Shown here piece by piece: positions 264 through 64,000 of a stretch of DNA of 64,000 bases. Origin of the DNA: Deferrivibrio essentukiensis (GTDB lineage: Bacteria > Chrysiogenota > Deferribacteres > Deferribacterales > Deferrivibrionaceae); assembly GCF_020480685.1 (NCBI RefSeq), contig NZ_JAJAFU010000014.1, positions 1 to 64,000 on the forward strand, written 5' to 3'. How positions within the stretch are numbered: position 1 is the first letter of the stretch; every line of letters starts with the position of its first letter. Both the position numbers and the translations under genes were made by a program. The notes below the pieces were generated by a model. It saw only the letters and a list, made by a program, of their open reading frames with translations. It did not search any database and was not told the DNA's origin.

Positions 264-941
264 ATGTTAACTTCAAATGAAGTGTCAAGTCAATATGGTG
301 TAACAAGCTCAACGAGAGCTGAGCCCAAAAAAGAGTTGAATAAAGATGATTTTTTAAATTTGATGGTTACACAACTTAAAAATCAAGACCCCTTAAACCC
401 TTTGGATAATAATGAGTTTATCAGTCAGACTACTCAATTTTCTTCTCTTGAACAGCTAATAAATATAGGGGAAAGTATAAAAGAATTAGCTGAAAGTCAA
501 ACCAATGGCAGTATGAATAATAACTTGTACTCAGCGTCAAACTTTATTGGCAAAGAAGTGAAATATTTCAGTGATACAATAAACCTAAATGAGGACGGTG
601 CTTTGATTGGTTATGAGCTTGATGATATACCAGCAAGTTTGTCACTAAAGATAATAGATGAAAACGGTAATGCGGTTGCAAATATAGTTCCTTCTTCGAC
701 ATCATACGGGATGAATGAGATTAATTGGGACGGATTAAACGCAAATTGGGATAAACTTCCAAATGGTAAGTATAAGGTGGTAGTTGATGCGTTAGATGCT
801 TCAGGCAGTCAAATCCCATATAGAACTTATACCAGTGGAATAGCAAGTGGTGTGAGCATGCTTAATGGCAATCTTAAGTTTAATTTGGATAGTAATGAAG
901 TATCTTCAGACAGTATCTTTGCTGTATATGAAAATAAGTAA
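264..941 (+). CDS. flgD: Flagellar hook assembly (capping) protein FlgD
   Basis: The 225-residue protein has the family's N-terminal signature, DFLNLMVTQLKNQDPLNP, near residues 29-46, followed by a polar helix (TTQFSSLEQL). Next comes a beta-rich FlgD Ig-like/tudor region (about 90-210) with the typical phrase about an Asn-Trp-Asp-Gly turn (INWDGLNANWDKLPNGKY). FlgD caps the growing hook and guides polymerisation of FlgE outside the cell. The ATG is preceded by a strong AGGAGG site at a good distance. The gene sits between fliK and flgE in one transcription unit. Length and motifs are normal for the family. Confidence 0.95.
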   Translation: MLTSNEVSSQYGVTSSTRAEPKKELNKDDFLNLMVTQLKNQDPLNPLDNNEFISQTTQFSSLEQLINIGESIKELAESQTNGSMNNNLYSASNFIGKEVKYFSDTINLNEDGALIGYELDDIPASLSLKIIDENGNAVANIVPSSTSYGMNEINWDGLNANWDKLPNGKYKVVVDALDASGSQIPYRTYTSGIASGVSMLNGNLKFNLDSNEVSSDSIFAVYENK

Positions 942-44332: not shown

Positions 44333-45580
44333 ATGATTAAGGTTCTTGCGGTTGACGACAGCCCTACAATGCATAGGCTCTTTAAAATGATTTTTAGCAC
44401 GGATGAATATGAGCTCAGGCTTGCCGATAATGGTGAAGAGGGGCTTAGAATTGTAAAGGAGTTTTCACCTGATTTAATTTTACTCGACTTTATCATGCCT
44501 AAAATGAACGGTTTTCAATTTTGTAAAATTTTGAGAGAGGATTATGGATTTAATGAAATTCCTGTCCTTTTGATTACAAGTAAGGCTGAAGATGTCGGAG
44601 ATAAGTTTATCGAAAAGTTTAAGTGTATTGATTATATTGCAAAGCCGTTTCAACCTGATGAGTTGATTGAAAAAGTTAATGAGGTTGTAAATAAGTGTGA
44701 AAATGGTGTGCAAGATGACGGCGAAATTGATCAGCTACTTGATATTGAAGCCAAAAGTTTTGAAGATAATGTTGAGCATCAGTTTGCTGATGTCAAAGTA
44801 GAACAAAATAAAGAATATTCTTCAAGCTCCGTAGTGGATGAAATAATCTCAAAGGTTGAAAAAGACGTATTACCCACACTAAGAAAGTCTATTGAAAAAT
44901 TTCTTAAATTTGAAACAGGTTATATGATTAGCGATATCAAAGGTGAGTCAATAAATATTGAGAAACTAACTGATATTATGACAAAGTTTGATGGTGAACT
45001 CACTGTTTTTAATAATGAGATTGACTACCATTTTTATGTGTCAGGTGGATATATTTCTTATTGTTATAAGGGGGACGATAAGGTCGAAGATTTTTTTGAG
45101 CTATTGCAGGATGTGACAGGTACTTGTCTTTTAGAGGTTGATAATTTTGTTTCTTTATATGCTCAGGTGAGAAATTTGGGGTTTGAAGACAGCCTTATAA
45201 AGAGATGTTTTATATTCTATGTAGCAAATATGCTTTGCGAGGCATTTGACCTTAGTGGTAGCAGATATTATGTAGATTTGATTGATGTGGATGATAATTT
45301 TAAAAGCAAGAATTGGGTTTCATATAGTGATTTAGATAAAGTTGTGTCAGATTTTAAAGAAGAGAAGGTTGAGATAAATAAAATAATATATGATGAAAAT
45401 CTTGTCCCGCAGAGGATTACGGAGCAACCTGATAGTCTGAAAGCTTTTGAGGTTAGATTATTTGAACTTTGTGACGGGAAAAGGACAGTTGGTGAGATTT
45501 TGAGATTTTTTGGTAACAACAGGCAGTACGTGAAGAATATAATAGGTACTTTAGTATTGACAGGATATTTAAAAATTTAA
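44333..45580 (+). CDS. Response regulator with PatA/DUF4388-like output region
   Basis: The 415-residue protein starts with a receiver domain: D8, D9 and phospho-acceptor D52 (LLDFIMPKMNG), with Lys in AKPF. A variable linker (about 120-165) leads to an alpha/beta effector region and ends with a winged-helix-like piece, FELCDGKRTVGEILRFFG. This end resembles DUF4388/PATAN-type outputs, though the family fit is loose. It is first in a seven-gene chemosensory operon, where PatA- or PilG-type regulators usually sit, so control of type IV pili or surface behaviour is a reasonable guess. About 170 bases upstream are free of genes and should hold the promoter. Confidence 0.75.
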   Translation: MIKVLAVDDSPTMHRLFKMIFSTDEYELRLADNGEEGLRIVKEFSPDLILLDFIMPKMNGFQFCKILREDYGFNEIPVLLITSKAEDVGDKFIEKFKCIDYIAKPFQPDELIEKVNEVVNKCENGVQDDGEIDQLLDIEAKSFEDNVEHQFADVKVEQNKEYSSSSVVDEIISKVEKDVLPTLRKSIEKFLKFETGYMISDIKGESINIEKLTDIMTKFDGELTVFNNEIDYHFYVSGGYISYCYKGDDKVEDFFELLQDVTGTCLLEVDNFVSLYAQVRNLGFEDSLIKRCFIFYVANMLCEAFDLSGSRYYVDLIDVDDNFKSKNWVSYSDLDKVVSDFKEEKVEINKIIYDENLVPQRITEQPDSLKAFEVRLFELCDGKRTVGEILRFFGNNRQYVKNIIGTLVLTGYLKI

Positions 45581-45594
45581 TTTAGGGGGTATAT

Positions 45595-45957
45595 ATGGCT
45601 AAAATTTTGGTAGTAGATGATAGTTTAACCGAAAGGGAAATTATAAAAAAAGCACTTGAGGCTGAAGGGTATAGTGTAGTGTTAGCTAATGATGGTGAAG
45701 CGGGACTGAAGGCACTTGATGGTGAAAAGTTTGACTGTGTGCTGCTCGATGTGGTAATGCCCGGAAAAAACGGATATCAGATTTGTAGAGAGATTAAAAA
45801 GAGTGACTTTACTAAAGATATTCCGGTTATATTAGTAACATCTAAAGGACAGGATAGTGATAAATTTTGGGGCAAAAAGCAGGGGGCCGATGATTACATT
45901 GTTAAGCCTTTTCAAATTGAAGAACTTATTCAGACTGTCAAGAGGTTTGTTAAGTGA
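45595..45957 (+). CDS. CheY/PilH-like single-domain response regulator
   Basis: The 120-residue protein is one receiver domain with D8-D9, phospho-acceptor D52 in LLDVVMPGKNGYQI, the Ser/Thr switch in ILVTSKG and Lys in IVKPFQ. It has no output domain, so it should act by binding a partner or as a phosphate sink for the CheA encoded downstream. A GGGGG-type site precedes the ATG. The stop overlaps the next gene by four bases (GTGA). Confidence 0.93.
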   Translation: MAKILVVDDSLTEREIIKKALEAEGYSVVLANDGEAGLKALDGEKFDCVLLDVVMPGKNGYQICREIKKSDFTKDIPVILVTSKGQDSDKFWGKKQGADDYIVKPFQIEELIQTVKRFVK

Positions 45958-46433
45958 TAAAACAAGTCTTGTTAAAAAAGGCAAAGGGCTTACCTGTTGT
46001 AGAAAAACCAGTTGGACTAAAAAAGTTCGTAGTATGTATGGTTGGTTCTAAAAAATTTTTGATTGAGCTTGACAAAGTCAGAGAGCTTGTTCCGTTAACT
46101 ACAATTGCAAATATCCCTGGAACTGATCATAAAATTTTAGGAGCATTATATCTTAGAGGGGAAATAGTTGTAATAATTGATCTTCGTGAGAAGCTTAACG
46201 TAAGCGAGGTGAAGAAAACTATTGCAAGCAGATTTGTTATTGTTGATGTTGAGGGTGAATTATTAGGTATTTTTGTGGATGAAGCTCAACAAATTATAGA
46301 AGTAGGTAAGGAACAGATTGCCAAGGAAGTTGAAGAAAAAGAAGATTTTTTTTACGAATATGTTGATGTTGACGGCCTATTGGTAGGTGTTTTGGATTTA
46401 AGTAAAATTTATTTTGATTATAAAATTAAGTGA
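45954..46433 (+). CDS. CheW/PilI-like coupling protein
   Basis: The 159-residue protein is a CheW domain: [20 protein letters not shown], then [26 protein letters not shown], and [10 protein letters not shown]. CheW links receptor and kinase in the array. The start is GTG at 45954, overlapping the upstream stop; the first 24 residues precede the domain. It ends in an overlap zone with the receptor gene's ribosome site. Confidence 0.92.
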
Positions 46434-46441
46434 GGTTGGTT

Positions 46442-48598
46442 ATGGCAGAAAGAGGTGTTAAGTTTAGTTTGTTGTCCAAGATTGTTTTGTTATTGCTTGT
46501 TGTTATTGCTCTTGTTTCTTTTACTGCGAGTTACATCGTTTACTCAAATTCTGTTAAGACTGAAGTTAAAAACATCCTTGAAGATTTAACTACAAGGGTT
46601 GATGGGACATTTAAAAGGATTGAAGATAAGGACAAAGAGGTGGGTAGTATTATTAGGACTTTTACCATATCACCACTTTTAAAAACGGCTTTACAAGGTA
46701 AAGTTAAGCAAAGTGTGATTACTGGTGAGATGGATAGATTTTTAAGCACATACACAGATGTGTCCTCTGTTTATCTTGTAGATTTGGATTATAATATTAT
46801 CGGTGAAGCTTCCAAAAAAGAGATTAAGTTGCCGCCTCTTGATGAAATTATATATTATGAAGACCTAAAGCTTAACGAATATTATGTCGAGTCGTATTTG
46901 ACTAAAGAGACCCCTTATGTTGTATATTACTCACCTGTAGGGGATGAAAATGGTATTTACGGGGCACTTGTGGCAGTTGTGGATGGTAATTATCTGCTCG
47001 GTTTTGCTAACTCTGAGTTTACAAAAATGAAGTTTCATGAAGCCCAGAGAAGTTGTGCTAATTGCCATACCAAGGAAGAAGGGCTTATTAATTACGGTTT
47101 TACGGTTGTTTATGACGCTGACGGAAACTTAGTTCTTAATCCTCTGTTTGGTGACAGAATGCTTTATGAAAAGAAGCCTGAATTTACCGCACTTTTCAAT
47201 GAAATAAAGCCTGTTTTGAAAGTGGATAAGTTCATAGAAAAAGAGGTTATTGTTCAAGGACAGCCATTTTTTGCATCTTTTGGTAAGTTGAGTTTTAAGA
47301 AAACTGAGTTTTACGTAGGTATGCTTAAAAATAAAAATTATAAACTTGCCAGTATTCAAAAAGGTGGTTTGTTCTCTATAGGCATTACGGCAGTTTTGGC
47401 GCTCATAATTTTCTTGGTAACTATAGTGCTTATGAGGAGATCTTTATCCCCTGTTTTTGAGCTTAACAATGCTATGCAAAGGGTAATGGAAGGGGAATAT
47501 GATATTAGGGTTGCTTCAAAAACATCAGATGAGCTTGGAAGTCTTGCGGAAGGTTTTAATGAGATGCTTGACAGGATTTCAGGTTATATTCAAACAGATG
47601 AAGATAGAAAACGCCTGCAAAACCAAGCAATAAATCTAATGGATGTAGTTTCTGAGGCTGCTGAAGGTAACTTGACTGTTGAAGCGGAAGTAACTGCTGA
47701 TGAACTTGGCGCGGTTGCAGATGCATTTAATATGATGACAGGCAATATTAGGGAGCTTATTAACGATATTAAGAGTGCGGGTGACTCCATTGTTGATGCT
47801 ACCGAAAAGTTGCTTATGGCAGCTGAAAAAACAAGTGAAGGTGCGAATATTCAGATTGAAGAATTGAATAAGACTTATGAGGTCATTACGGTATTTAAGA
47901 AAAATAGCCAGGCTTCTGCTACAAAGTCTGAAGAAACGGTTGAAGTTACGGCAAGTGCTTCTGAAGCAGCAGAAAAAGGGCTTGCTATGCTTGATGAAAC
48001 AGTTGATGCAATGTTGAATGTTAAGAGGTATTCTCAGCTTGCTTCTAAAAAGGTTAAGAGCCTTGGCGAAAGGTCTCTTGAGATTGGTGATATTACAAAT
48101 GTTATTAGTGAAATTTCCAACCAGACAAACCTTCTTGCACTTAATGCTGCTATAGAGGCTGCAAGGGCTGGAGAATATGGCCATGGTTTTGCGGTTGTTG
48201 CAGATGAGATTAGAAAGCTTGCAGAAAGAAGTACGAAGGCTACTAAGGAGATTGCTGAGCTTATTAAATCTATTCAGGTAGAAACATCCGAGACAGTAAA
48301 ACTTGTTGAGGAGAGTACGGTAAATATCGAGCATAGTTCTGATTTGGCTGAAAAAGCAGGTAACTCATTGAAAGATATCAATGAAGCATTAGTAAGGGCA
48401 AGGGATTCGATTAGAGAGATTTCTCTTGAAATTATTAACCAGGCTGAAGAGGCAAACAATGTAGCTGTATCAATTGAAAAGGTTAGGGAGATTGCAGAAG
48501 GCACAGTTGAAGGTGTGAAACAGACAAATATGATTGTTGCAACTCTGTCTCAATTGGCTGAAATGTTTAAGGAAGCAGTAGATAAATTTAGAGTATAA
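46442..48598 (+). CDS. Chemoreceptor with extracytoplasmic CxxCH (heme c) sensor domain
   Basis: The 718-residue receptor has membrane segments near 12-36 and 305-328 and a sensor domain between them containing C205-A-N-C208-H209, a standard heme c attachment motif. Two HAMP units follow ([18 protein letters not shown] and [19 protein letters not shown] regions), as in PilJ-type receptors, then the signalling tip [18 protein letters not shown]. Covalent heme would be added outside the membrane by the cytochrome c maturation system, so redox or gas sensing is likely. Geobacter heme-c receptors give precedent, with a different sensor fold. ATG at 46442 has GAGG upstream; a GTG four codons earlier is less good. 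Confidence 0.93.
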
Positions 48599-48600
48599 AA

Positions 48601-50949
48601 ATGGCTAAAATTAACAAGCAGGAACTGATTGAGTTTTTCTTGATGGAAAGTGAAGAGCACTTTGAGACCATTTTAAATGGTCTCTTGGTGCTTGAGCAGA
48701 ATCCTGAAAATTGGTCTATAATTGATGAGATGTTTCGCAGCACCCATACTATCAAAGGTTCTGCTGCAATGGTGGGCTTTATCAATGTATCGAGTGTGGC
48801 ACATAAATTGGAAGATTTTTTAGATGAATTTAGAACCGGGAAAAGAAAAATTGATCAGGGGATAACGACTACTTTAGTGGAAATTTTTGAAAAATTTAAC
48901 AATGAGGTTAAGTCGAAAAAGGATGACTTAGGTCAAAGTTTGTATGAAGAACTTTTGGCTAAAATTGATAATATTTCAAAAATAGCTCCTTTATCTGTTA
49001 ATGAAAATTTGTCAGAATCCCCCACTGTTAAAAAACAGACTAAGATAAAACCTTCAAGAACAGAGATACTGGAAAGAGCTGATGAAAATTTTACTCAAAT
49101 TGGCGAGCAGGCGTTTGACAGTTATATAAGGGTAAAGCTGAATAAAATTGATAGTTTATTAAACTTGGCAGGGGAGCTTATTACCAATAAAAACAGGCAG
49201 AATGAAAGGGTAAAAGCAATCCAAGACTTAAGTAGTAATCTTGAATACACAAAAAATAGGCTTGTTCAGATTATTAGGGAATTTGAAGACAAGTACTCAT
49301 ATACATTATCTTCTGAAAATGAGTTGGCTAAAAGTTATTCTGAAGAACTCTTAGATGGTTTTTCAGAGGGTGAATTTGATAGGTATGACCACTTTAATAT
49401 ACTTTCAAGACGTCTTCAGGAGATTGGTAATGATATCGTAATGAGTATTGATGAAATTTTTAAGAATTTTGAATCTTTTTCCGAAGAAATTAGTTATGTA
49501 AACAGAGTAACAGATAGTATTCAGAAAGGGTTAACATCAATAAGACTTGTTCCGATTGATAGACTTTTCAGTGCAGCTACAAGAGCGGCAAGAAGTGCGG
49601 CGATTGCAGAAAATAAGAAAGTTAAAGTACATATTATAGGAGAGAAAGTTGAGCTTGATAAGACACTTATTGATGCTCTGACAGAATCTTTTATTCATAT
49701 AGTAAGGAATTCTATTTCTCACGGTATAGAAAACTCTGATATTAGAAAACAAAAGGAGAAGGATGAAGAAGGTAACATCTATCTAAAGGCAAAACGTGAG
49801 GGGAGATATGTTATTTTGGAAGTTGAAGATGATGGCAGTGGGCTAAATCTTGAGCTTATAAGGGAAAAAGTAATCCAGAAGGGTTTATTGCCAGAATATG
49901 AAGCCAAAAATATGAGGGCAGATAAACTGCTTAATTATATATTTTTACCTGGTTTTTCTACAAAAGAAGGATCATCTGAAATTTCAGGGCGTGGTGTAGG
50001 GCTTGATGTTGTAAAAAAACAAGTAGAAAGTCTTGATGGTAATATATCTGTTATAAATAAAGAAGGCAAAGGACTATGTATACAACTTAGTGTGCCTGTT
50101 ACTCTTTTGATTTCAGAATATCTTTTATTGCGGGAAAACTCTCAGGCATTTTCTATCCCCATCATTTCGGTTTATGAATCTTTTAATATAGATACATCAA
50201 ATGTAAAAAAGATAGGCGGACGTTTTTTTTATAAAATACGGGACGAAATACATGAAATTCACGATCTTGGTGTGTTATTAAAGCAGGTTGAAAATGCCCA
50301 GTTTGAGGACGGTAGTGTAGGAATAATTGTTGAAGGTATAAAAAAACCTTACATAATTACAGTAGATGAAATCATCGGAAGAGAAACTGCTGTAACAAAA
50401 AAGTTGGGTAGAATAGTTGAAGGTTTAAAACATATAACCGGTGCAACTATAAGTCCAAGTGGTGAGGTAAGGCTGATTATTGATCCTATAAGGCTTATAG
50501 AAGAAAAAACAGAAGGAACTCTAAATTATAGCAAAACCACAACAGACCAGCCAAAAAGTACAGGGAAAACATATATTCCTAATAGTGTATTAATTGTGGA
50601 TGATTCTATCAGTATTAGGAAGTTTTTAAGTTCTATCATTTCTGACATGAACTTGGCGGTGGACGAAGCTTACGATGGTGCCAATGCACTTGAAAAACTT
50701 GAAAAGAGGAGATATGATTTAATAATAACCGACTTGGAGATGCCTGTGCTGAACGGTTATGAACTAATTGATAAGATTAGGAATTACTATCGTGATAATT
50801 CTACTTCAATATTTGTTTTAACATCAAGGGCTACAGAAAAACATAAAAATAAGGCCTTTGAACTTGGGGCAAACGATTTTTTAATTAAACCGTTAAATGA
50901 AGATAAAATTAAAGAAAAAATAAGAGAGGTAATTTTTGAAAGGGCTTAA
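48601..50949 (+). CDS. Hybrid CheA histidine kinase with receiver domain (ChpA/PilL-like)
   Basis: The 782-residue protein has a single Hpt domain with the phospho-accepting H49 in FRSTHTIKGSAAMVG and a dimer helix region near 175-290. The ATPase domain shows an N-box (HIVRNSISHGIE), EVEDDGSGLN and GRGVGLDVVKKQ. A CheW-like domain (about 490-635) and a C-terminal receiver (about 660-782, TDLEMPVLNGYEL) follow. No separate P2 domain is obvious. This layout is that of CheA-REC kinases of pilus or alternative chemosensory systems. It begins three bases after the receptor gene. Confidence 0.94.
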   Translation: MAKINKQELIEFFLMESEEHFETILNGLLVLEQNPENWSIIDEMFRSTHTIKGSAAMVGFINVSSVAHKLEDFLDEFRTGKRKIDQGITTTLVEIFEKFNNEVKSKKDDLGQSLYEELLAKIDNISKIAPLSVNENLSESPTVKKQTKIKPSRTEILERADENFTQIGEQAFDSYIRVKLNKIDSLLNLAGELITNKNRQNERVKAIQDLSSNLEYTKNRLVQIIREFEDKYSYTLSSENELAKSYSEELLDGFSEGEFDRYDHFNILSRRLQEIGNDIVMSIDEIFKNFESFSEEISYVNRVTDSIQKGLTSIRLVPIDRLFSAATRAARSAAIAENKKVKVHIIGEKVELDKTLIDALTESFIHIVRNSISHGIENSDIRKQKEKDEEGNIYLKAKREGRYVILEVEDDGSGLNLELIREKVIQKGLLPEYEAKNMRADKLLNYIFLPGFSTKEGSSEISGRGVGLDVVKKQVESLDGNISVINKEGKGLCIQLSVPVTLLISEYLLLRENSQAFSIPIISVYESFNIDTSNVKKIGGRFFYKIRDEIHEIHDLGVLLKQVENAQFEDGSVGIIVEGIKKPYIITVDEIIGRETAVTKKLGRIVEGLKHITGATISPSGEVRLIIDPIRLIEEKTEGTLNYSKTTTDQPKSTGKTYIPNSVLIVDDSISIRKFLSSIISDMNLAVDEAYDGANALEKLEKRRYDLIITDLEMPVLNGYELIDKIRNYYRDNSTSIFVLTSRATEKHKNKAFELGANDFLIKPLNEDKIKEKIREVIFERA

Positions 50950-51310
50950 ATTTAAACAAGGAGATTTTCATTTTATAGTTGATGTAAGAGATATTCTCCA
51001 CGTTGCCAGCAGAAAAGATGTAAAAGATGACCTGAAGGAGATTAAAAATCTTGATTTTAAGAAGCTTCTTAATGTGGGGAATTCATCTGAAGAGGTTATT
51101 TTTATTGGACGGGATGATAAAATAATGGGATTATTGGTTGAAAAAGTTATTGAAGTATCTGAAATAGGCGAAGTATTCCCTTTTGAAAAAGAAATTTTTG
51201 TGATAGAGTTTATTAAGGGGATGGTTAAGTACAATGATGTGATATATTACTTAATAGATTTTGACAAAATAATAGAGGTAGATTATGAAGAAAAAAGTCC
51301 TTCTTATTGA
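50936..51310 (+). CDS. Small divergent CheW-like protein, TTG start
   Basis: The 124-residue protein has the strand order of a CheW domain (FHFIVDVRDILHV, EEVIFIGRDDKIMGLLVEKV, then the closing VIYYLIDFDKII) but lacks most consensus positions. The start is TTG at 50936, overlapping the CheA end by 14 bases, with GAGAGG six bases upstream. By position it matches ChpC-type accessory CheW proteins. It could be a second adaptor that directs another receptor or the acidic regulator encoded next. Confidence 0.75.
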   Translation: MKGLKFKQGDFHFIVDVRDILHVASRKDVKDDLKEIKNLDFKKLLNVGNSSEEVIFIGRDDKIMGLLVEKVIEVSEIGEVFPFEKEIFVIEFIKGMVKYNDVIYYLIDFDKIIEVDYEEKSPSY

Positions 51311-56072: not shown

Positions 56073-56636
56073 TCAAGTATACGAGACTAACCTAATGTCA
56101 TCTGCAAGTTTTTCGGTTAACTTAGCTATTTTTTTATATACTATTGTGTCTGCATTTTCATACATTGCTTTACTGAATTTTGTAATCCATGGATAGAAAT
56201 ATTTTTCTAAAAATATATTTAATTTCTCTTTATCCTTAGAATTCTTGATATATTCAAGAATAGCAACTAAATGGTCTTCTCCATATTTAAAATTATCTGA
56301 TAATATAAAATTATCTTCAATATATTCAAATTTTATTTCTTCTGTTATTTTAGAGACAACAGTTTTGTTTTCACTTAAATGGTATGAAGCAATTGGAAAT
56401 GTATTGAAATCCTTTGGATGAGTAAAAAGTTTAACATAGTCAAAATTAAGTTCTTCTTCTACTACTTCAGCAGAATTTTGGCCTATGTATAACAAAATTT
56501 CTTTAATATCATCATCACAAACATCATCTAAAGGTATCTTTTTTAAGTCATTAATAATTTCGCTATTTAAATTATTTTTCAAAAATAATTGAAGGAAATC
56601 TATAATAAAAATTGTTTCTTCATTTAAGAACTGCAT
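56073..56636 (-). CDS. TorD/DmsD-type molybdoenzyme maturation chaperone
   Basis: The 187-residue, mainly helical protein has the TorD features: YVKLFTHPKDFNTFPIASYH (family pattern Y..LF..P......P.ESY), GEDHLVAILEYIK (the p.DH..EL helix), and YPWITKFSKAMYENADTIVYKK near the end. Such chaperones bind the Tat signal of a DMSO reductase family enzyme and help cofactor insertion before export. It follows the catalytic subunit gene, and is its probable partner. Sequence divergence from named members is large. Confidence 0.85.
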   Translation of the reverse strand: MQFLNEETIFIIDFLQLFLKNNLNSEIINDLKKIPLDDVCDDDIKEILLYIGQNSAEVVEEELNFDYVKLFTHPKDFNTFPIASYHLSENKTVVSKITEEIKFEYIEDNFILSDNFKYGEDHLVAILEYIKNSKDKEKLNIFLEKYFYPWITKFSKAMYENADTIVYKKIAKLTEKLADDIRLVSYT

Positions 56637-56662
56637 CTATGCCTCCATAAAAATATAAGGGG

Positions 56663-56681
56663 GGGCAGCCTTAAACTGCCC
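56663..56681 (-). terminator. Intercistronic hairpin between molybdoenzyme and chaperone genes
   Basis: GGGCAG and CTGCCC pair around a seven-base loop, with a TTATATTTTT tail on the minus strand after three extra C residues. It would lower chaperone expression relative to the enzyme. Confidence 0.55.
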
Positions 56682-56692
56682 TCAATTAAATT

Positions 56693-59530
56693 TTATACTT
56701 TCTTTATCCTAGCAATCATATCTGCAAACGTAGGAAATCCCATAATAGGTGACCTTCCATTTGGATCAGTCATTAGGTTAGCCAAAGGGGTAGTCCCTTT
56801 AACTTTGTAAAGAGGACCAATTTCCTTAACAAACCTACCACCAGTGCCAAATGCAATTTTAATAACTTTTGGTCTTATTCCACCTGATGCAAATATTTTG
56901 CCTCTTGTTGAAAAACCAAGGGGATTTTCAATTTCAACCAAATCACCTGTTTTTAAGTTTAGCTCTTTTGCATCATCTTCATTCATCCATATTGTGCCAA
57001 CTGAATAACTGTTTTTCTCAAATACTTGTTCTTTAGCTTTATATTTAGCTCCAGGTAAAACATCTACAGTTATGTCTTTAATTTCATCATTTAGCGGTTG
57101 CCATGTACCCTCAACTTTTATCTCAGATAGAAATGTTGCCATTTGAGTACCTGTCATAGCATGGTGAACTCGGCCATTTATAACCTGGAATGGATACTCA
57201 TTTTCAAATCTTTTGTATTTCAAATTAGTGTAAGGATTCCAAATAGTTTCAAACCAGTAAAATGTTTTTGGAAACTTTTCTAAGCCTATCTCTTTTAGCC
57301 CTGCTGGTATAACTTTTGATTCCTCAATACGCTTATTGTACTTAGAGTATCTTCCTTTTCTCTTTCCACTATCCTCATAATCCCAAACAAACTCAATTAG
57401 TTTAGAATCTGTCTTTGGAAAAGCTTTGTTAGGTTCATCGCTACCAACTTTTTTATACCTGTAATAGCTCATTGGCCATACAGCTACGCCTTTATTCTTT
57501 CTCAGCCATTCAACTGTGAGGGGTTTTCCTTTAATTACTTTTTTCTTATGATCTATTTCTACTTCACCTTTTTCTAATGACTCTGGTGTTCCTAAGATTT
57601 TATAACCTTCTGGATACTTAGGATATGGAAGTGGTGTGCCGACATTTAACTTTCCTGGCGAGACTGCTAACATTTCATTCACGAAATCTTCCTCTGAGTT
57701 ATATTTCAGCCAAAAATCTTCTCCTTTTAAATCCTTATCACCAAGTTCCACAAGTCTTTTAGCAAGCATATTCATTATTTCTGTTGGTTTTTTACTTTCA
57801 TAAAGAGGTTTAATAACCTCATCTCTTAAATATAACACAGGGTGTGATGGATAAATATCACTCAACGACATCCTTTCAACAAAACTTGCTTCTGGAAGAA
57901 TTACATCAGCATAAAGTGCACTTTCTAAAAAGATTGAATCTATCACTACAGAAAGTTCAAGTTTATATTCACCATTTGAATCTTTAGCTGTAAATGCTTT
58001 TTTCCAAGCTTCGGGATTAGAAGCGGTTATTAGTGAATTTCCTGTTCTTAAAATATAACCTTTAAATGGATATTTATGCCCTTTAAAAGGTCCATAAGTA
58101 ATGTTTACACCTTTAAATATTCTATCAGGTATATCGGCTACAACATCATCCCATGCTGAAGGGTACTGATCACCATAAGCATCTTTGTGAAGATGTTCGA
58201 CTTCGCCTTCTACCTCTTTGCCATTTATAACTTTTTTTATTTTTCTTTTTTTAAACTGCGCACCTTTGGCACTTCCACCTTTGCTGGCTTTAACTATTTC
58301 TGTATCAATGGCTCCTCCTGGAGCATCAAAGTTACCGGTAATTACATTCAACACCGTACCAATAATTGAGGCACAATATCCATTATAATGGTGCCCAGGA
58401 GATTGCATACCCCATACAAGTGTTGCAGGTTTGGTTATCCCAAAATCATGAGCTAAATTTCTTATCTGGTCTATCGTAAGCCCTGTTCTATCGCTAGCCC
58501 ACTCAAGAGAAAAATAGCTAAGATTATTTATTGGGTCCTTTTTGTTAAACCAGCTTTTAAATTCATCAAAAAATTTATCCCAACCTTTAACATATTTTTT
58601 CATATTCCAGTCGATATATCTTCTATCAGGATTATTAGGGTTATCATTTTCAATAATATATCTTAACATTGCACCGAAAAGGTCACCATCAGTTCCTGCA
58701 CGTGGTGCAAGCCACTGGTCTGCGGCAGTTGCAGTATTGGAATATGAAGGATCAATTACAACAACCTTACATCCATTCTTAAGTTTTGCCTCAACAGTAC
58801 CTCTATTTTCATAGTAAATTCTAGTTGATACAAAAGGGTTCCAACCGTTATAAATTATAAGTTTTGTTTTGTAGTCATAATTTTTAGTCAGATTACCTTT
58901 TTTATCCCTTATTAAGAGAGGTCTCATTATGTCAGGCTGAATTCTTTTACCACCTAAGATAAGTTTTGGACCATGTCTTCTAGGAGTATCACAAATTGCA
59001 CCATGCTCAACACAGTTTGGAGTTCCCCATGCAAAAAACAATCTCCAGTATTGATCTCTGTCCGTTACATCTCCAGTATTCATCATAACAGATTCAGCAC
59101 CATATTCTTTTTTGATTTTGGTAAGTTTTTTTGCAATAAAGTCTATTGCTTCGTCCCAACTAACTTTTTTAAATTGTCCACTTCCTCTTTCGCCTGTTCT
59201 TATCATTGGGTGCTTTATCCTGTAAGGTGAATATACCAGCTGGGGAATAGATGCGGCTTTAGCACAACAAGTTCCATCATTCATAGGAACATCTTTGTTC
59301 CCATAAATCTTCCATAGGTTTCCACCTTTTGACCAAAACTCAAGACCACACTCGGCAGGGCACATAGCATCAGCACTAAAAACTTTTTTATAATTTTTTA
59401 GCTCTTCTTTTATAATTCCGGCTTCTTTTGGGGAGATTTTGGCAAGAACATCTCCAGATTTAGCGTTTATTGCGGCAATAGTAGCAGCTGCTGCGGATGA
59501 TTTTAGAAAATTTCTTCTACTTATTTTCAT
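56693..59530 (-). CDS. Tat-exported molybdopterin oxidoreductase, catalytic subunit (DMSO reductase family)
   Basis: The 945-residue protein begins with a twin-arginine signal (KISRRNFLKSSAAAATIAA). The Fe-S region reads D-A-M-C-P-A-E-C and then, 27 residues on, a Cys in GTCCAK: three of the four usual Cys are present and Asp occupies the first ligand position. The Mo ligand is probably Cys in EHGAICDTP. Domains typical of the family follow (NGWNPFVSTRIYYENRG, VIDPSYSNTATAADQW, and a C-terminal dinucleotide-binding part with LKTGDLVEIEN). The subunit should reduce or oxidise a small oxyanion or sulfur compound in the periplasm. Arsenate, polysulfide, thiosulfate, tetrathionate and selenate enzymes are all possible. 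GGGAGG precedes the ATG. Confidence 0.9.
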   Translation of the reverse strand: MKISRRNFLKSSAAAATIAAINAKSGDVLAKISPKEAGIIKEELKNYKKVFSADAMCPAECGLEFWSKGGNLWKIYGNKDVPMNDGTCCAKAASIPQLVYSPYRIKHPMIRTGERGSGQFKKVSWDEAIDFIAKKLTKIKKEYGAESVMMNTGDVTDRDQYWRLFFAWGTPNCVEHGAICDTPRRHGPKLILGGKRIQPDIMRPLLIRDKKGNLTKNYDYKTKLIIYNGWNPFVSTRIYYENRGTVEAKLKNGCKVVVIDPSYSNTATAADQWLAPRAGTDGDLFGAMLRYIIENDNPNNPDRRYIDWNMKKYVKGWDKFFDEFKSWFNKKDPINNLSYFSLEWASDRTGLTIDQIRNLAHDFGITKPATLVWGMQSPGHHYNGYCASIIGTVLNVITGNFDAPGGAIDTEIVKASKGGSAKGAQFKKRKIKKVINGKEVEGEVEHLHKDAYGDQYPSAWDDVVADIPDRIFKGVNITYGPFKGHKYPFKGYILRTGNSLITASNPEAWKKAFTAKDSNGEYKLELSVVIDSIFLESALYADVILPEASFVERMSLSDIYPSHPVLYLRDEVIKPLYESKKPTEIMNMLAKRLVELGDKDLKGEDFWLKYNSEEDFVNEMLAVSPGKLNVGTPLPYPKYPEGYKILGTPESLEKGEVEIDHKKKVIKGKPLTVEWLRKNKGVAVWPMSYYRYKKVGSDEPNKAFPKTDSKLIEFVWDYEDSGKRKGRYSKYNKRIEESKVIPAGLKEIGLEKFPKTFYWFETIWNPYTNLKYKRFENEYPFQVINGRVHHAMTGTQMATFLSEIKVEGTWQPLNDEIKDITVDVLPGAKYKAKEQVFEKNSYSVGTIWMNEDDAKELNLKTGDLVEIENPLGFSTRGKIFASGGIRPKVIKIAFGTGGRFVKEIGPLYKVKGTTPLANLMTDPNGRSPIMGFPTFADMIARIKKV

Positions 59531-59533
59531 AAC

Positions 59534-60202
59534 CTATACCTCCCTGTTTATTTCTTTGTCAGCTACTTCAAACACCTTAAAGTCTTTAATAAAATATGTC
59601 ACTCTAGGTTTTGTACCAAATTCTTCATTCCATTTAGCACCTTTTACAGTTTTTAATAGCTTTGAAACTGTACTATTAGGGTCATTTAGGTCACCAAAAT
59701 ATCTGGCTTTACCAGGGCAATTTCTTACACACGCAGGTTCTTCAATCCCAGCAGCAATCCTGTGAAAACAGAAATCACATTTATCAATAACAAATAATGA
59801 TTTTTTAGTTTTACCTTTAACCTCTTCCACTTTTGGATATTTTGCTGGGTCATTTTTGATATTAATATTTTTATTTAGGTATCTTGCACCGTATGGACAT
59901 GCATCGGCACATCTTCCGCAACCTAAACAGAGATCTCTGTCAACAACAACTGTTCCATCCTTTCTTTTATAAGTTGCTCCTTTTACCGGACATGGAGATA
60001 AACATGGTGGGTTGTCACAATGATTACAGAGCTTTGGAAAAAAGAATCTTTTAGGTGTAGGATATTTTCCAATGTCTGCATAATCGACTCTTGATCTAAA
60101 AGAGCCAAAAGGAACCTCATTTTCCTGTTTACATGTTACTTGGCAACTGCCGCAACCAACACACTTTCTTAAATCCACAATAAATGCATATTTTTTACTC
60201 AT
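59534..60202 (-). CDS. Four-cluster ferredoxin-type electron transfer subunit of the molybdoenzyme
   Basis: The 222-residue protein has sixteen Cys in four [4Fe-4S] patterns: CVGCGSCQVTCK, CNHCDNPPCLSPCPV, CLGCGRCADACPYG, and CDFCFHRIAAG followed by PACVRNCPG. This is the DmsB/PhsB/PsrB type. It has no signal peptide and should be exported with the Tat-tagged catalytic subunit encoded three bases downstream. ATG at 60202 follows AGGAGG; a GTG two codons earlier is an alternative. No membrane anchor gene is adjacent, so the link to quinones is not explained. Confidence 0.93.
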   Translation of the reverse strand: MSKKYAFIVDLRKCVGCGSCQVTCKQENEVPFGSFRSRVDYADIGKYPTPKRFFFPKLCNHCDNPPCLSPCPVKGATYKRKDGTVVVDRDLCLGCGRCADACPYGARYLNKNINIKNDPAKYPKVEEVKGKTKKSLFVIDKCDFCFHRIAAGIEEPACVRNCPGKARYFGDLNDPNSTVSKLLKTVKGAKWNEEFGTKPRVTYFIKDFKVFEVADKEINREV

Positions 60203-60228
60203 AAGCACCTCCTAAGTTAGAAATTAGG

Positions 60229-60244
60229 AGCAAGTAGTATGCCA
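60229..60244 (-). promoter_or_regulatory. Sigma-54 (-24/-12) promoter of the molybdoenzyme operon
   Basis: On the minus strand TGGCAT-ACTAC-TTGCT matches the sigma-54 consensus, with GG and GC ten bases apart as required. It ends about 27 bases before the ferredoxin subunit start, leaving a short leader with the ribosome site. A sigma-54 activator is encoded directly upstream. Confidence 0.85.
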
Positions 60245-60303
60245 ATGAGTATTTTGCTCAAATCTAGTATTTAAGCGGATTGATTAAAATGATAATTATA
60301 GAT

Positions 60304-60343
60304 TGTTCAAATTGGCAACAGTAAATTGTTATAATAATGAACA
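60304..60343 (-). promoter_or_regulatory. Two 17-bp dyads TGTT-N9-AACA, likely activator-binding sites
   Basis: Two copies of TGTT-N9-AACA lie at 60304-60320 and 60327-60343, centres 23 bp apart, about two helical turns. They are roughly 60-115 bp upstream of the -24 element, where activators of sigma-54 promoters bind. The adjacent NtrC-type regulator is the obvious candidate to bind them. Confidence 0.7.
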
Positions 60344-60349
60344 GTTAGA

Positions 60350-61711
60350 TTAGTCATCTAAACCAAGTAACTTTCTCAATTTATTGCGTGACACTTTAAG
60401 CTTATCTGCTGTTAAAACCTGGTTCTTTCCATATTTAATATAAAAGCTATTTGCTATATTTTCCTCTATTTTCAATATGAAATCATTTAAACCATTACTT
60501 TCTATCAATTCTTCATACTCAGATAACAAAGAAGCAAAAGCCAAATCTTCTTTTTGAGACTCATTGATAATTGCTATATCATCCGCATGAATTACATCTG
60601 AACCATTTATGACTGCTCTTTTAATAATATTTTCCAACTCTCTAATATTCCCAGGGTAATCATATTTAATTAGCTTATCTGCCGCTTTCTGTGTTAATTT
60701 TATCTTCCTGTCAGCATACTTACTCAAGAAGTATTTACATAATGGAATAATATCATCTTTTCTTTCTCTAAGTGGTTTTAAATTTATTTCAAATGTGTTC
60801 AAGCGATAATATAAATCATTTCTAAATAGTTTCAAATTAACAAGTTCTGGTATATTTCTATTTGTAGCTGCAATAAATCTAACATTAATTTTCTTTATTT
60901 TATTACTGCCAAGTTTTACAATTTCTCTCTCCTGTAAAACCCTTAAAATTTTAGCTTGCAAAGTTAAGGGCATATCCCCTATTTCATCCAAAAATACAGT
61001 CCCCCCTTCTGCAAATTCTAGTTTCCCTATATGGTCATTGGAAGCACCAGTAAAAGCCCCCTTTTCATAACCAAAAAGTTCACTTTCAAGAAGATCAGCC
61101 GGAATAGAACTACAATTTATTGCTACAAAATTTTTGTTTCTTCTCTTCGAAAAATTGTGTAAAGCTTTTGCTACTATTTCTTTACCCGTACCTGTTTCAC
61201 CTGTGATTAAAACAGATTCATCTGTCTGAGATATCTTCCCAATCTTTTTGATTGTATCCAACATGTGAGTTGAGTTGCTAATTATCTTTTCATTACAATC
61301 ATTATCATTTTGTACACACAAATAAGTACCAAAGTCTTGTTCTTTATCTTCTTTTAAAATATTTGAAATAATACTGTTGAGCTGGTCACTATCAAAAGGT
61401 TTTAGTATATAATCAAATGCTCCTTTTTTCATTGCATCTATAGCGATATCAGTTTCGTGAAAAGCTGTCATCACAATCACTTTAGTATTTGATTCTGCAA
61501 AATTTGACGATGATAATTTTTCTAAAAGTTCCAAACCATCAATATCAGGGAGCTTCACATCTAAAAAAATTATATCAAAAATATTCCCATAAAAGAGTTT
61601 AAGTCCACTTGTTCCATCATAAGCCAATACTACATGCATTCCCTTTTGTTCAAGTAATCTACGCAATGAATAACAGATTGATTTTTGATCATCTATAACT
61701 AAAACGTTCAT
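60350..61711 (-). CDS. Sigma-54-dependent response regulator (NtrC family)
   Basis: The 453-residue protein has a receiver domain with D7-D8 and phospho-acceptor D51. The AAA+ domain has Walker A GETGTGKE and the sigma-54 contact loop GAFTGA in ELFGYEKGAFTGAS. A Fis-type helix-turn-helix follows at the end (LTADKLKVSRNKLRKLLG). It should activate the -24/-12 promoter directly downstream. Its start overlaps the kinase stop by four bases (ATGA). All functional motifs are intact. Confidence 0.94.
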   Translation of the reverse strand: MNVLVIDDQKSICYSLRRLLEQKGMHVVLAYDGTSGLKLFYGNIFDIIFLDVKLPDIDGLELLEKLSSSNFAESNTKVIVMTAFHETDIAIDAMKKGAFDYILKPFDSDQLNSIISNILKEDKEQDFGTYLCVQNDNDCNEKIISNSTHMLDTIKKIGKISQTDESVLITGETGTGKEIVAKALHNFSKRRNKNFVAINCSSIPADLLESELFGYEKGAFTGASNDHIGKLEFAEGGTVFLDEIGDMPLTLQAKILRVLQEREIVKLGSNKIKKINVRFIAATNRNIPELVNLKLFRNDLYYRLNTFEINLKPLRERKDDIIPLCKYFLSKYADRKIKLTQKAADKLIKYDYPGNIRELENIIKRAVINGSDVIHADDIAIINESQKEDLAFASLLSEYEELIESNGLNDFILKIEENIANSFYIKYGKNQVLTADKLKVSRNKLRKLLGLDD

Positions 61712-63090
61712 ATTGTTCCTCTTAACAATATTCTAAATGAAGTTAAATTGGCTTTGCTTTCCACAGCAATATCACCATAATGGATTTTAACGATGTTGTA
61801 TACTATATAAAGCCCCATCCCTGTTCCATCTTTTTTTGTTGTGAAAAAAGGATCAAAAACTTTACTTAAGTTAACAGTTGAAATGCCTTTTCCGCTATCA
61901 GAAAAAATTATTTCAACACCTTCATCTAGATATTTTGTGCTTATATTTATAAAACCGTTACTTTCAATCGCCTCTAATGAATTTCTAACTAAATTATAAA
62001 AAAGAAGTTCTAAAAGAGGAAAATAACCTTTTATATATTTTATTTCTGAACTCTGATTATAATTAACTGCTACCTTTTTCTGCAAAATAGAGTCTTTAAA
62101 TTCCATCAAAACATTTTCAATAATCTCATGAATATTTACAAAACCTATATCTATTTCTGAAACAACAAACTGCCCAGTAAGCTTTTTTAAAAGTTCTTCT
62201 ATGTTATTAGTTTCATCTCTTATAATAGCTATATCATCGTTTTTTATATTATTCTCGTTAAGTCCACTCACTAATAATTTTATTGAAGTAATGGAGCTTT
62301 TTATTTCATGTAAAATACCTGATTTAAGTGTATTAAAAGCACTTATTTTTTCTGTAAGTAAAAGATTATTAAATGTGTGTTTAAAATTATCATGGTATCT
62401 TTTTAATTCTATAGAAAGGTTATTTAAAGTTTCAATAATTTTTCTTACTTCAAGAGAGCCTGATGGGGTAGTAGTTACACCAAACTCTTTATTCATAAGC
62501 TTATTAGCAAAATGGTACAAATCGCTCAAAGGTTTTGTTAAAAAATTACTTAATAAATAAGACAATATTAATACTATAATTACAATTAAAATAATATATT
62601 GTATAAATTTATCCATAACTCGTTTAAATAAAAATTCAATACTATTTTCAGTAAAACCTAAGTGCATTTCATAATCAAGGTTATCAATAATTTTAACGCC
62701 CACATCATGGATAATTTCTTTTTTATTTTTTAAAAGAACTACATTAGTATCTTTGCCTTCTAAATTATTCCAGGTTTCAATACCAACTGGAATATATTCT
62801 CCGAAAGTTGATACCAGAATATTTCTGTTTTCATCTAAAATATAGATATACTCAATGCCATTATTTGTTTTTTTTATTTTTGAAAGACTCTTTTCAATTT
62901 TAAGTAAGTCAGAAAGGAGAAGGTCATTAGCAATCATATTTGCAGTTACTTTAGCAAAAGATATTGAAATTTTATCAGCCTCTTCCCTCATAGAAATTTT
63001 TGTATAGTTTGAGACCATAAAGAAGATTCCAAATGATATTGCTAAAACTACAAAAAGCATTGATAGAAAAAGCTTTAGTTTAAACTTCAT
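61708..63090 (-). CDS. Membrane sensor histidine kinase
   Basis: The 460-residue kinase has membrane segments near 5-26 and 165-187, an extracytoplasmic domain between them, a HAMP segment, the His in SGILHEIKSS, an N-box in YNLVRNSLEAIE, and the ATP-binding glycine boxes SDSGKGIS and GTGMGLYIVYNIV. It forms a pair with the NtrC-type regulator. Its start overlaps the stop of the PhnD-like lipoprotein gene by four bases, so ligand information probably comes from that protein. The arrangement matches AioX-AioS-AioR. Confidence 0.93.
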   Translation of the reverse strand: MKFKLKLFLSMLFVVLAISFGIFFMVSNYTKISMREEADKISISFAKVTANMIANDLLLSDLLKIEKSLSKIKKTNNGIEYIYILDENRNILVSTFGEYIPVGIETWNNLEGKDTNVVLLKNKKEIIHDVGVKIIDNLDYEMHLGFTENSIEFLFKRVMDKFIQYIILIVIIVLILSYLLSNFLTKPLSDLYHFANKLMNKEFGVTTTPSGSLEVRKIIETLNNLSIELKRYHDNFKHTFNNLLLTEKISAFNTLKSGILHEIKSSITSIKLLVSGLNENNIKNDDIAIIRDETNNIEELLKKLTGQFVVSEIDIGFVNIHEIIENVLMEFKDSILQKKVAVNYNQSSEIKYIKGYFPLLELLFYNLVRNSLEAIESNGFINISTKYLDEGVEIIFSDSGKGISTVNLSKVFDPFFTTKKDGTGMGLYIVYNIVKIHYGDIAVESKANLTSFRILLRGTI

Positions 63091-64000
63091 TTTAGATTGT
63101 AATATTTATTTATTAAAGACATAAGGTCTCCAAACCTAACATTTTCAGCATCTGTAAATCCATTTTCCATTTCCGTAAATTTCCATAAATCACTTTTAAA
63201 GCCATTTTTGGGATTAAATTCCAAAAGAGCAGCTTTTATTATATTTTTTTTAGCTGATGATAAATATGGGGATACACAAACCGTACTTGATGGAAAAGGT
63301 TTTGATAGTTTTACTATATCTAAAATCCCCTCTTCTGCCATCTTAAAAGCTAACTTATCCTGAATTGCACCTGCATCTGCAAACCCATTTACAACTTTGT
63401 TTACCACATCTTTATGAGAGTCTGAAAATTCATATTCCAAATCTTTTAGGTATATTCCTGCATCTTCAAGCATTTTTCTTGGGATAAGGTAACCTTGAGT
63501 TGAATATTTATTACCAAAAACAAATTTTTTGTGTTTAATATCTTTTAAGCTATTTATAGTTTTGTTACCAGCCTTTTTGATTATGGCTCCTTTATAATAA
63601 GGTTGACTTTGACCATTTAGTCCGAAAACGATTGGGTATGAGCCATATTTACTGCCAGATAGTAAACAACTCACTGTCCCCATTAAAGATATATCAATGC
63701 TACCTTTACCTAACATGTGTATATTATCTGGATAGTTTCTAGGTACTTTTATTTTATAGTTAAACCCTGTTTTTGCCTCCAGATATTTTATAAGGGGCAT
63801 ATAAAATGCTACATCTTCTGTAGGTTCCCATCTCAGATCAAATCCAACGTATATTGTATTATTATCAACATTTTTAAGATTTTTATCACTGATGGAAATT
63901 TTTTGGGTTTTTGAAAGATCTATTTCTTTGAAATCTTCATTACCATTACATGCGACAAGAGAAAAAATAATTAAATATAAAAAAAAATAAAAAAAGATAT
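63087..64000 (-). CDS. PhnD-like periplasmic binding lipoprotein, 5' end outside window
   Basis: The frame stays open to the right edge and its first codons lie beyond the window. The visible start reads IFFYFFLYLIIFSLVAC, a lipoprotein signal with the acylated Cys. The body is a PhnD/phosphonate-type binding fold: VGFDLRWEPTEDVAFYMPLI, IDISLMGTVSCLL, then SLKDIKHKKFVFGNKYSTQG and a VSPYLSS hinge. An ATG at 63800 is internal. Relatives such as AioX bind arsenite and signal to a histidine kinase. Overlap with the kinase gene supports the same design here; the ligand is unknown. Confidence 0.85.
   Translation of the reverse strand, partial: IFFYFFLYLIIFSLVACNGNEDFKEIDLSKTQKISISDKNLKNVDNNTIYVGFDLRWEPTEDVAFYMPLIKYLEAKTGFNYKIKVPRNYPDNIHMLGKGSIDISLMGTVSCLLSGSKYGSYPIVFGLNGQSQPYYKGAIIKKAGNKTINSLKDIKHKKFVFGNKYSTQGYLIPRKMLEDAGIYLKDLEYEFSDSHKDVVNKVVNGFADAGAIQDKLAFKMAEEGILDIVKLSKPFPSSTVCVSPYLSSAKKNIIKAALLEFNPKNGFKSDLWKFTEMENGFTDAENVRFGDLMSLINKYYNLK

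Follow-up and report, generated by a model that had tools for sequence, protein, structure and literature searches.

The DUF3365/Tll0287 family (PF11845, "sCache_heme") has been presented as the first known case of a Cache domain carrying a covalently bound cofactor; its members, which include the Geobacter sulfurreducens chemoreceptors GSU0582 and GSU0935, are single Cache domains with a CxxCH motif between β3 and β4, and a signaling member shows nitric oxide (NO)-sensor properties while stand-alone proteins display redox-type properties (PMC12889525, a 2026 preprint). The single-Cache heme sensor spans ~135 residues (PMC3460858), and switching in GSU0582 and GSU0935 has been proposed to rely on a distal Met that is exchanged in step with redox state (PMC8396549). 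The regulator RomR, for its part, is built from a receiver domain, an unstructured linker, and a Glu-rich helical C-terminal region with an invariant Trp and Pro, and the Deferribacterales are among its holders (PMC3441718). Here we describe a locus from Deferrivibrio essentukiensis (assembly GCF_020480685.1) in which a chemoreceptor displaying CxxCH in its extracytoplasmic sensor is encoded together with a CheA-type kinase and a RomR-like regulator. The window analyzed is a stretch of 64,000 nucleotides, positions 1 to 64,000 of contig NZ_JAJAFU010000014.1. With a probability of about 0.6, we propose that this double-Cache (dCache) heme receptor responds to redox state or to NO or carbon monoxide (CO) and acts through the CheA of its operon on RomR/MglA polarity and type IV pili.

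The receptor gene encodes 718 amino acids (aa) from its ATG, with an alternative GTG start at 46430, four codons upstream. Translation and Kyte-Doolittle hydropathy place C205-A-N-C208-H209 between two membrane segments, as a first-pass annotation made from the sequence alone had it, and Pfam returns both of the HAMP units named there, together with a methyl-accepting chemotaxis protein (MCP) signaling domain. The same annotation had called the receptor PilJ-type; this assignment was rejected, as a profile search with the PilJ domain (PF13675) gave no match in the whole genome. Apart from C205 and C208 the entire protein has no cysteine, and apart from H199 and H209 the sensor has no histidine. 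At the base composition of the window, ~3e-4 CxxCH motifs would be expected by chance in a domain of this size.

Orthologues were collected from 11 of 51 Deferribacterota genomes, the genome of the window included, belonging to four families (f1-f4); outside the genus, their sensors are 27-36% identical to that of the window receptor. Both cysteines, the following His, and the upstream H199 are kept in every orthologue, and the homologue search called for by the first-pass annotation thus brought up none without the motif. The two residues enclosed by the motif vary (AN, AS, SS, MP, KS, QS, SN), and its Cys and His codons display silent changes. Invariant ungapped columns number 24 of 282, with C205, C208, H209, and H199 among them. 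Invariance of these four residues at ~30% sensor identity, with the inner positions drifting, argues that the CxxCH is not a chance occurrence; the pattern is that of a functional heme c site. As a separate observation, position 196, a Met in the window receptor, is a His in families f2 and f4 (HK[FY]H; L003-L013), which gives those families a second His near the motif. Beyond the phylum, no CxxCH-bearing relative was retrieved, either from 385 genomes selected for relatedness (no more than 51 of which belong to Deferribacterota) or from 136 genomes of one other phylum, and a plasmid search found none. One weak outside match (G453, E 8e-7) covers the distal module only, in a frame cut by a contig edge whose sequenced part holds no CxxCH.

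The machinery for heme attachment is encoded as well. A single cluster of cytochrome c maturation (Ccm) genes (ccmC-B-A-F-E plus a CcdA-like gene; L097) specifies CcmC, CcmB, an ATP-binding cassette ATPase at the CcmA position, CcmF, CcmE, and a CcdA-type (DsbD_TM-type) protein, so that a lack of Ccm genes, named in the first-pass annotation as a ground for refutation, does not apply. Given the conservation of the motif and the complete Ccm pathway, the prediction that the sensor carries covalent heme c outside the cell membrane, also made in the first-pass annotation, is well supported. A third Cytochrom_C_asm protein (271 aa frame, G000:C29:16723-17301) was noted besides, possibly belonging to a CcsA-type system in addition to Ccm.

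Structure prediction, which had been put forward as a check of the fold, points to two Cache modules. An AlphaFold model of the sensor, built from three sequences (mean pLDDT, the predicted local distance difference test score, 65.5), opens with a long N-terminal helix. A five-strand module that is well predicted follows (strands 73-147, model numbering), then a poorly predicted linker (pLDDT <50) containing the CxxCH (model residues 171-175). The chain continues into another five-strand module (strands 185-263), with the motif helix directly before its first strand. Nearly all of the 50 best Foldseek matches in the PDB are ligand-binding dCache domains, from chemoreceptors and from histidine kinases (E ~1e-9 to 1e-7); template-modeling scores against dCache domains over the whole chain are ~0.3-0.45, low since the model leaves it uncertain how the two modules pack. 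Searched on the sensor alone, the Pfam dCache_1 profile (PF02743) matches the distal half only (E 5e-7), its scores of 27.8-29.8 bits lying below the gathering cut-off of 45, and such a weak match recurs in 8 of the 11 orthologues. The proximal half modeled by itself gave a weak model (mean pLDDT 61.6), and a sequence search of solved structures returned no convincing relative, the best being the sensor histidine kinase 4onx (E 0.007, distal module only). The double Cache is therefore a well-supported fold class for the modeled sensor, and the CxxCH falls in the linker that immediately precedes the membrane-proximal module.

The gene for the heme receptor, the only receptor of its cluster, lies in a run of seven genes between coaD and purM whose synteny is complete in all 11 receptor-bearing genomes, and the 415-aa response regulator at its start occurs in exactly these 11 of the 51 genomes. 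The protein encoded last in the run is organized as described for RomR, with a receiver followed by a long acidic linker and a helical, Glu-rich C-terminal region in which a Trp and a Pro are conserved across the 11 genomes. RomR-like C-termini were found once per genome in 40 of the 51 genomes, the operon copy being the sole one in its genome. The chemosensory genes are absent from the corresponding site in two related families, in which RomR stands directly between coaD and purM (f5) or beside purM (f7). This comparison covers nine loci (L123-L131), of which L128 and L131 are cut by contig ends, and in L126 the RomR C-terminus fell under the cut-off of that search. The RomR-like genes at the f5/f7 site often form part of much longer frames, up to ~880 aa. 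In a FastTree tree of the flanking genes, f1 and f2 stand beside f5 and f7, which would favor loss of the chemosensory block in f5/f7; the deciding nodes are weak (0.77 and 0.35) and many genes are missing from the data.

Elsewhere in the genome, genes for MglA and a roadblock (MglB-like) protein adjoin each other, the former retrieved with a generic approximate query sequence and its match then checked with Pfam, and a PilT gene is present too. The link to surface behavior drawn in the first-pass annotation is strengthened by these genes and by the RomR-like gene of the operon; its description of an intact Pil-Chp-like operon did not hold, the cluster having neither CheR nor CheB. The domain order of the kinase fits that of CheA proteins of the alternative cellular function (ACF) type with a receiver, and the gene content looks more like a Frz-type arrangement (CheA with a C-terminal receiver) combined with RomR than like Pil-Chp. 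Gene order thus supports control of surface behavior or polarity over control of swimming, and it is probably through this cluster that respiratory conditions, or a gas such as NO, direct movement over surfaces by means of pili.

A mechanism can be envisaged in which one heme c is attached by the Ccm system at C205 and C208, in the linker between the Cache modules, with H209 as the proximal ligand. A candidate distal ligand, supplied by the same chain or by the dimer partner, is H199, which precedes the first cysteine by six or seven residues. Oxidation or reduction of the iron, or its binding of NO or CO, would shift the relative position of the membrane-proximal module, possibly with exchange of H199 or another distal ligand. 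By way of the second membrane helix and the HAMP units, the signal would then reach the CheA-type kinase encoded in the operon, and the kinase would act via CheY-like proteins on the RomR-like regulator and, through it, on the MglA/MglB polarity switch and hence on type IV pili. Heme attachment itself, like the nature of the signal, the identity of the axial ligand, the route of phosphotransfer, and the output, is inferred here. Several points weigh against the proposal. The sensor model, with its three sequences and its linker below a pLDDT of 50, fixes no heme placement, and the heme itself is predicted from sequence. The last gene is called RomR-like from features described for Myxococcus xanthus RomR, and its C-terminus had no significant match among PDB sequences. 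Finally, CheA is connected to RomR by gene order only.

In one alternative, the heme would be a structural or electron-transfer group, and an ordinary small ligand would be sensed at the distal Cache module. The redox-type behavior of stand-alone sCache_heme proteins (PMC12889525) lends this some weight, but the distal module is the less conserved part of the sensor, much of the conservation residing in CxxCH, in H199, and where the proximal module begins (G-F...D..G), and we regard such a role as unlikely. Equally improbable, in our estimate, is that the cluster steers flagellar swimming instead of pili or polarity. The canonical MCP signaling domain of the receptor would suit this, as would FlgL-like and FliW-like open reading frames (ORFs), read by eye, beside the Ccm genes (L097); against it stand the RomR-like gene that ends the operon, at the very site where related families keep RomR alone, and the absence of flagellar genes, as of CheR and CheB, from the cluster.

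Less room is left for the receptor as a diverged member of sCache_heme. It shares with GSU0582, GSU0935, and Tll0287 the cofactor motif, the compartment, and the Cache superfamily, and PF11845 proteins are common in Deferribacterota, three true members being encoded elsewhere in this genome. Yet PF11845 matches none of the 11 orthologues even at a permissive threshold, and in a profile-profile comparison the alignment was confined to 28 columns around CxxCH, with a probability of 21-31%. Two modules make up the sensor, in ~270 residues instead of one in ~135 (PMC3460858), its motif lies in the inter-module linker, ahead of the first strand of the second module, and not between strands 3 and 4, and the structures 3b42, 3b47, and 5b82 are absent from the top 50 fold matches. 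Membership was rejected on the missing profile match, the restriction of the profile comparison to the motif patch, and the different motif position, and the claim of the first-pass annotation that the domain differs from the Geobacter heme-c type is borne out. Least probable of all is a CxxCH without heme, forming a disulfide or binding a metal ion such as zinc as other CxxC motifs do, since the His after the second Cys is invariant, Ccm is encoded, and a protein with two cysteines has no second pair for a four-Cys metal site.

Absence of a PF11845 match, twice the length, and the different place of the motif make separate evolution from sCache_heme the simplest reading of the heme receptor. 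We would give even odds to the wider idea that it represents a second, independently evolved heme Cache class ("dCache_heme"), with heme at the inter-module hinge and a dedicated input to the RomR-MglA switch; among the papers searched for a dCache with heme and CxxCH, only PMC12889525 came up. If so, Cache sensors would have acquired heme c on at least two occasions, and a double Cache whose motif occupies another topological place would offer a simple hinge mechanism. In anaerobic respirers, redox state or NO would become a concrete environmental input to the RomR-MglA polarity module, and the RomR-alone site of the related families lends itself naturally to comparison, to see what is added by the chemosensory block.

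Table 1. Positions in the window of the chemosensory genes and of the receptor's predicted parts
Feature	Position	Strand	Basis
Response regulator, 415 aa, with conserved C-terminal region not in Pfam	44333..45580	+	Pfam Response_reg
Single-domain CheY-like regulator	45595..45957	+	Pfam Response_reg
CheW-like coupling protein	45954..46433	+	Pfam CheW
Putative heme-c double-Cache chemoreceptor	46442..48598	+	Translation; Pfam MCPsignal, HAMP x2, weak dCache_1
Membrane helix 1 (approximate), residues ~13-36	46478..46546	+	Kyte-Doolittle hydropathy
Predicted extracytoplasmic double-Cache sensor, residues ~37-304	46550..47353	+	AlphaFold model, Foldseek, Pfam dCache_1
His199, invariant, candidate second axial ligand	47036..47038	+	The sensor's other His; invariant in 11 orthologues
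CxxCH, predicted heme c attachment motif, C205-H209, in linker before membrane-proximal module	47054..47068	+	Invariant C, C, H in 11 orthologues
Membrane helix 2 (approximate), residues ~307-331	47360..47434	+	Kyte-Doolittle hydropathy
First HAMP, best stretch residues 329-380	47426..47581	+	Pfam, two HAMP stretches
Second HAMP, residues ~396-443		+	Position read by eye
CheA-type kinase, one Hpt, C-terminal receiver	48601..50949	+	Pfam Hpt, H-kinase_dim, HATPase_c, CheW, Response_reg
Second CheW-like protein	50936..51310	+	Pfam CheW, E 2e-4, slightly below curated cut-off
RomR-like regulator, 458 aa: receiver, long acidic linker, C-terminal helix	51285..52661	+	Sequence features, 11 genomes

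The C-terminal region of the 415-aa regulator (~250 residues) belongs to no Pfam family and is confined to the 11 heme-receptor genomes. Farther along the window, the minus strand of 56073-63998 encodes a molybdopterin oxidoreductase with a twin-arginine translocation (Tat)-type N-terminus (945 aa), an Fe-S subunit, and a small TorD-like ORF (the last read by eye). Next come a sensor kinase and a sigma54 response regulator, together with a PhnD-like binding protein. The NCBIfam matches in this region, to PhsA, ArrA, TtrB, and ArrB, all lie far below cut-off.

Among described systems, the sCache_heme chemoreceptors resemble the heme receptor in having an extracytoplasmic Cache-type sensor with CxxCH that feeds HAMP and MCP modules, and they differ in the length and motif position given above. 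DcrA of Desulfovibrio vulgaris is another chemoreceptor whose heme c lies in the periplasm, and redox potential or oxygen is its proposed stimulus (PMC8396549); in this comparison by description, DcrA has a cytoplasmic PAS domain, unlike the present receptor. The dCache_1 chemoreceptors (PF02743: PctA, CtaA, Tlp3, and others) share the double-Cache fold, as judged by the model, Foldseek, and the weak PF02743 match, whereas those named bind free small molecules, none of the top matches listed is described as a covalent heme protein, and three other PF02743 matches of this genome have no CxxCH. With Pil-Chp/PilJ the cluster shares a receptor with two HAMP units and a CheA that has a receiver, both accompanied by CheY- and CheW-like genes, but it has no PilJ domain and no equivalents of PilK or ChpB. 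The Frz/FrzE-RomR-MglA/MglB system of M. xanthus is matched in the CheA with a receiver, the RomR-like regulator, and the MglA and roadblock proteins of the genome (PMC3441718). M. xanthus FrzCD is not membrane bound, in contrast to the heme receptor, and, unlike in Frz, RomR is here encoded within the operon and the cluster contains no methylation enzymes.
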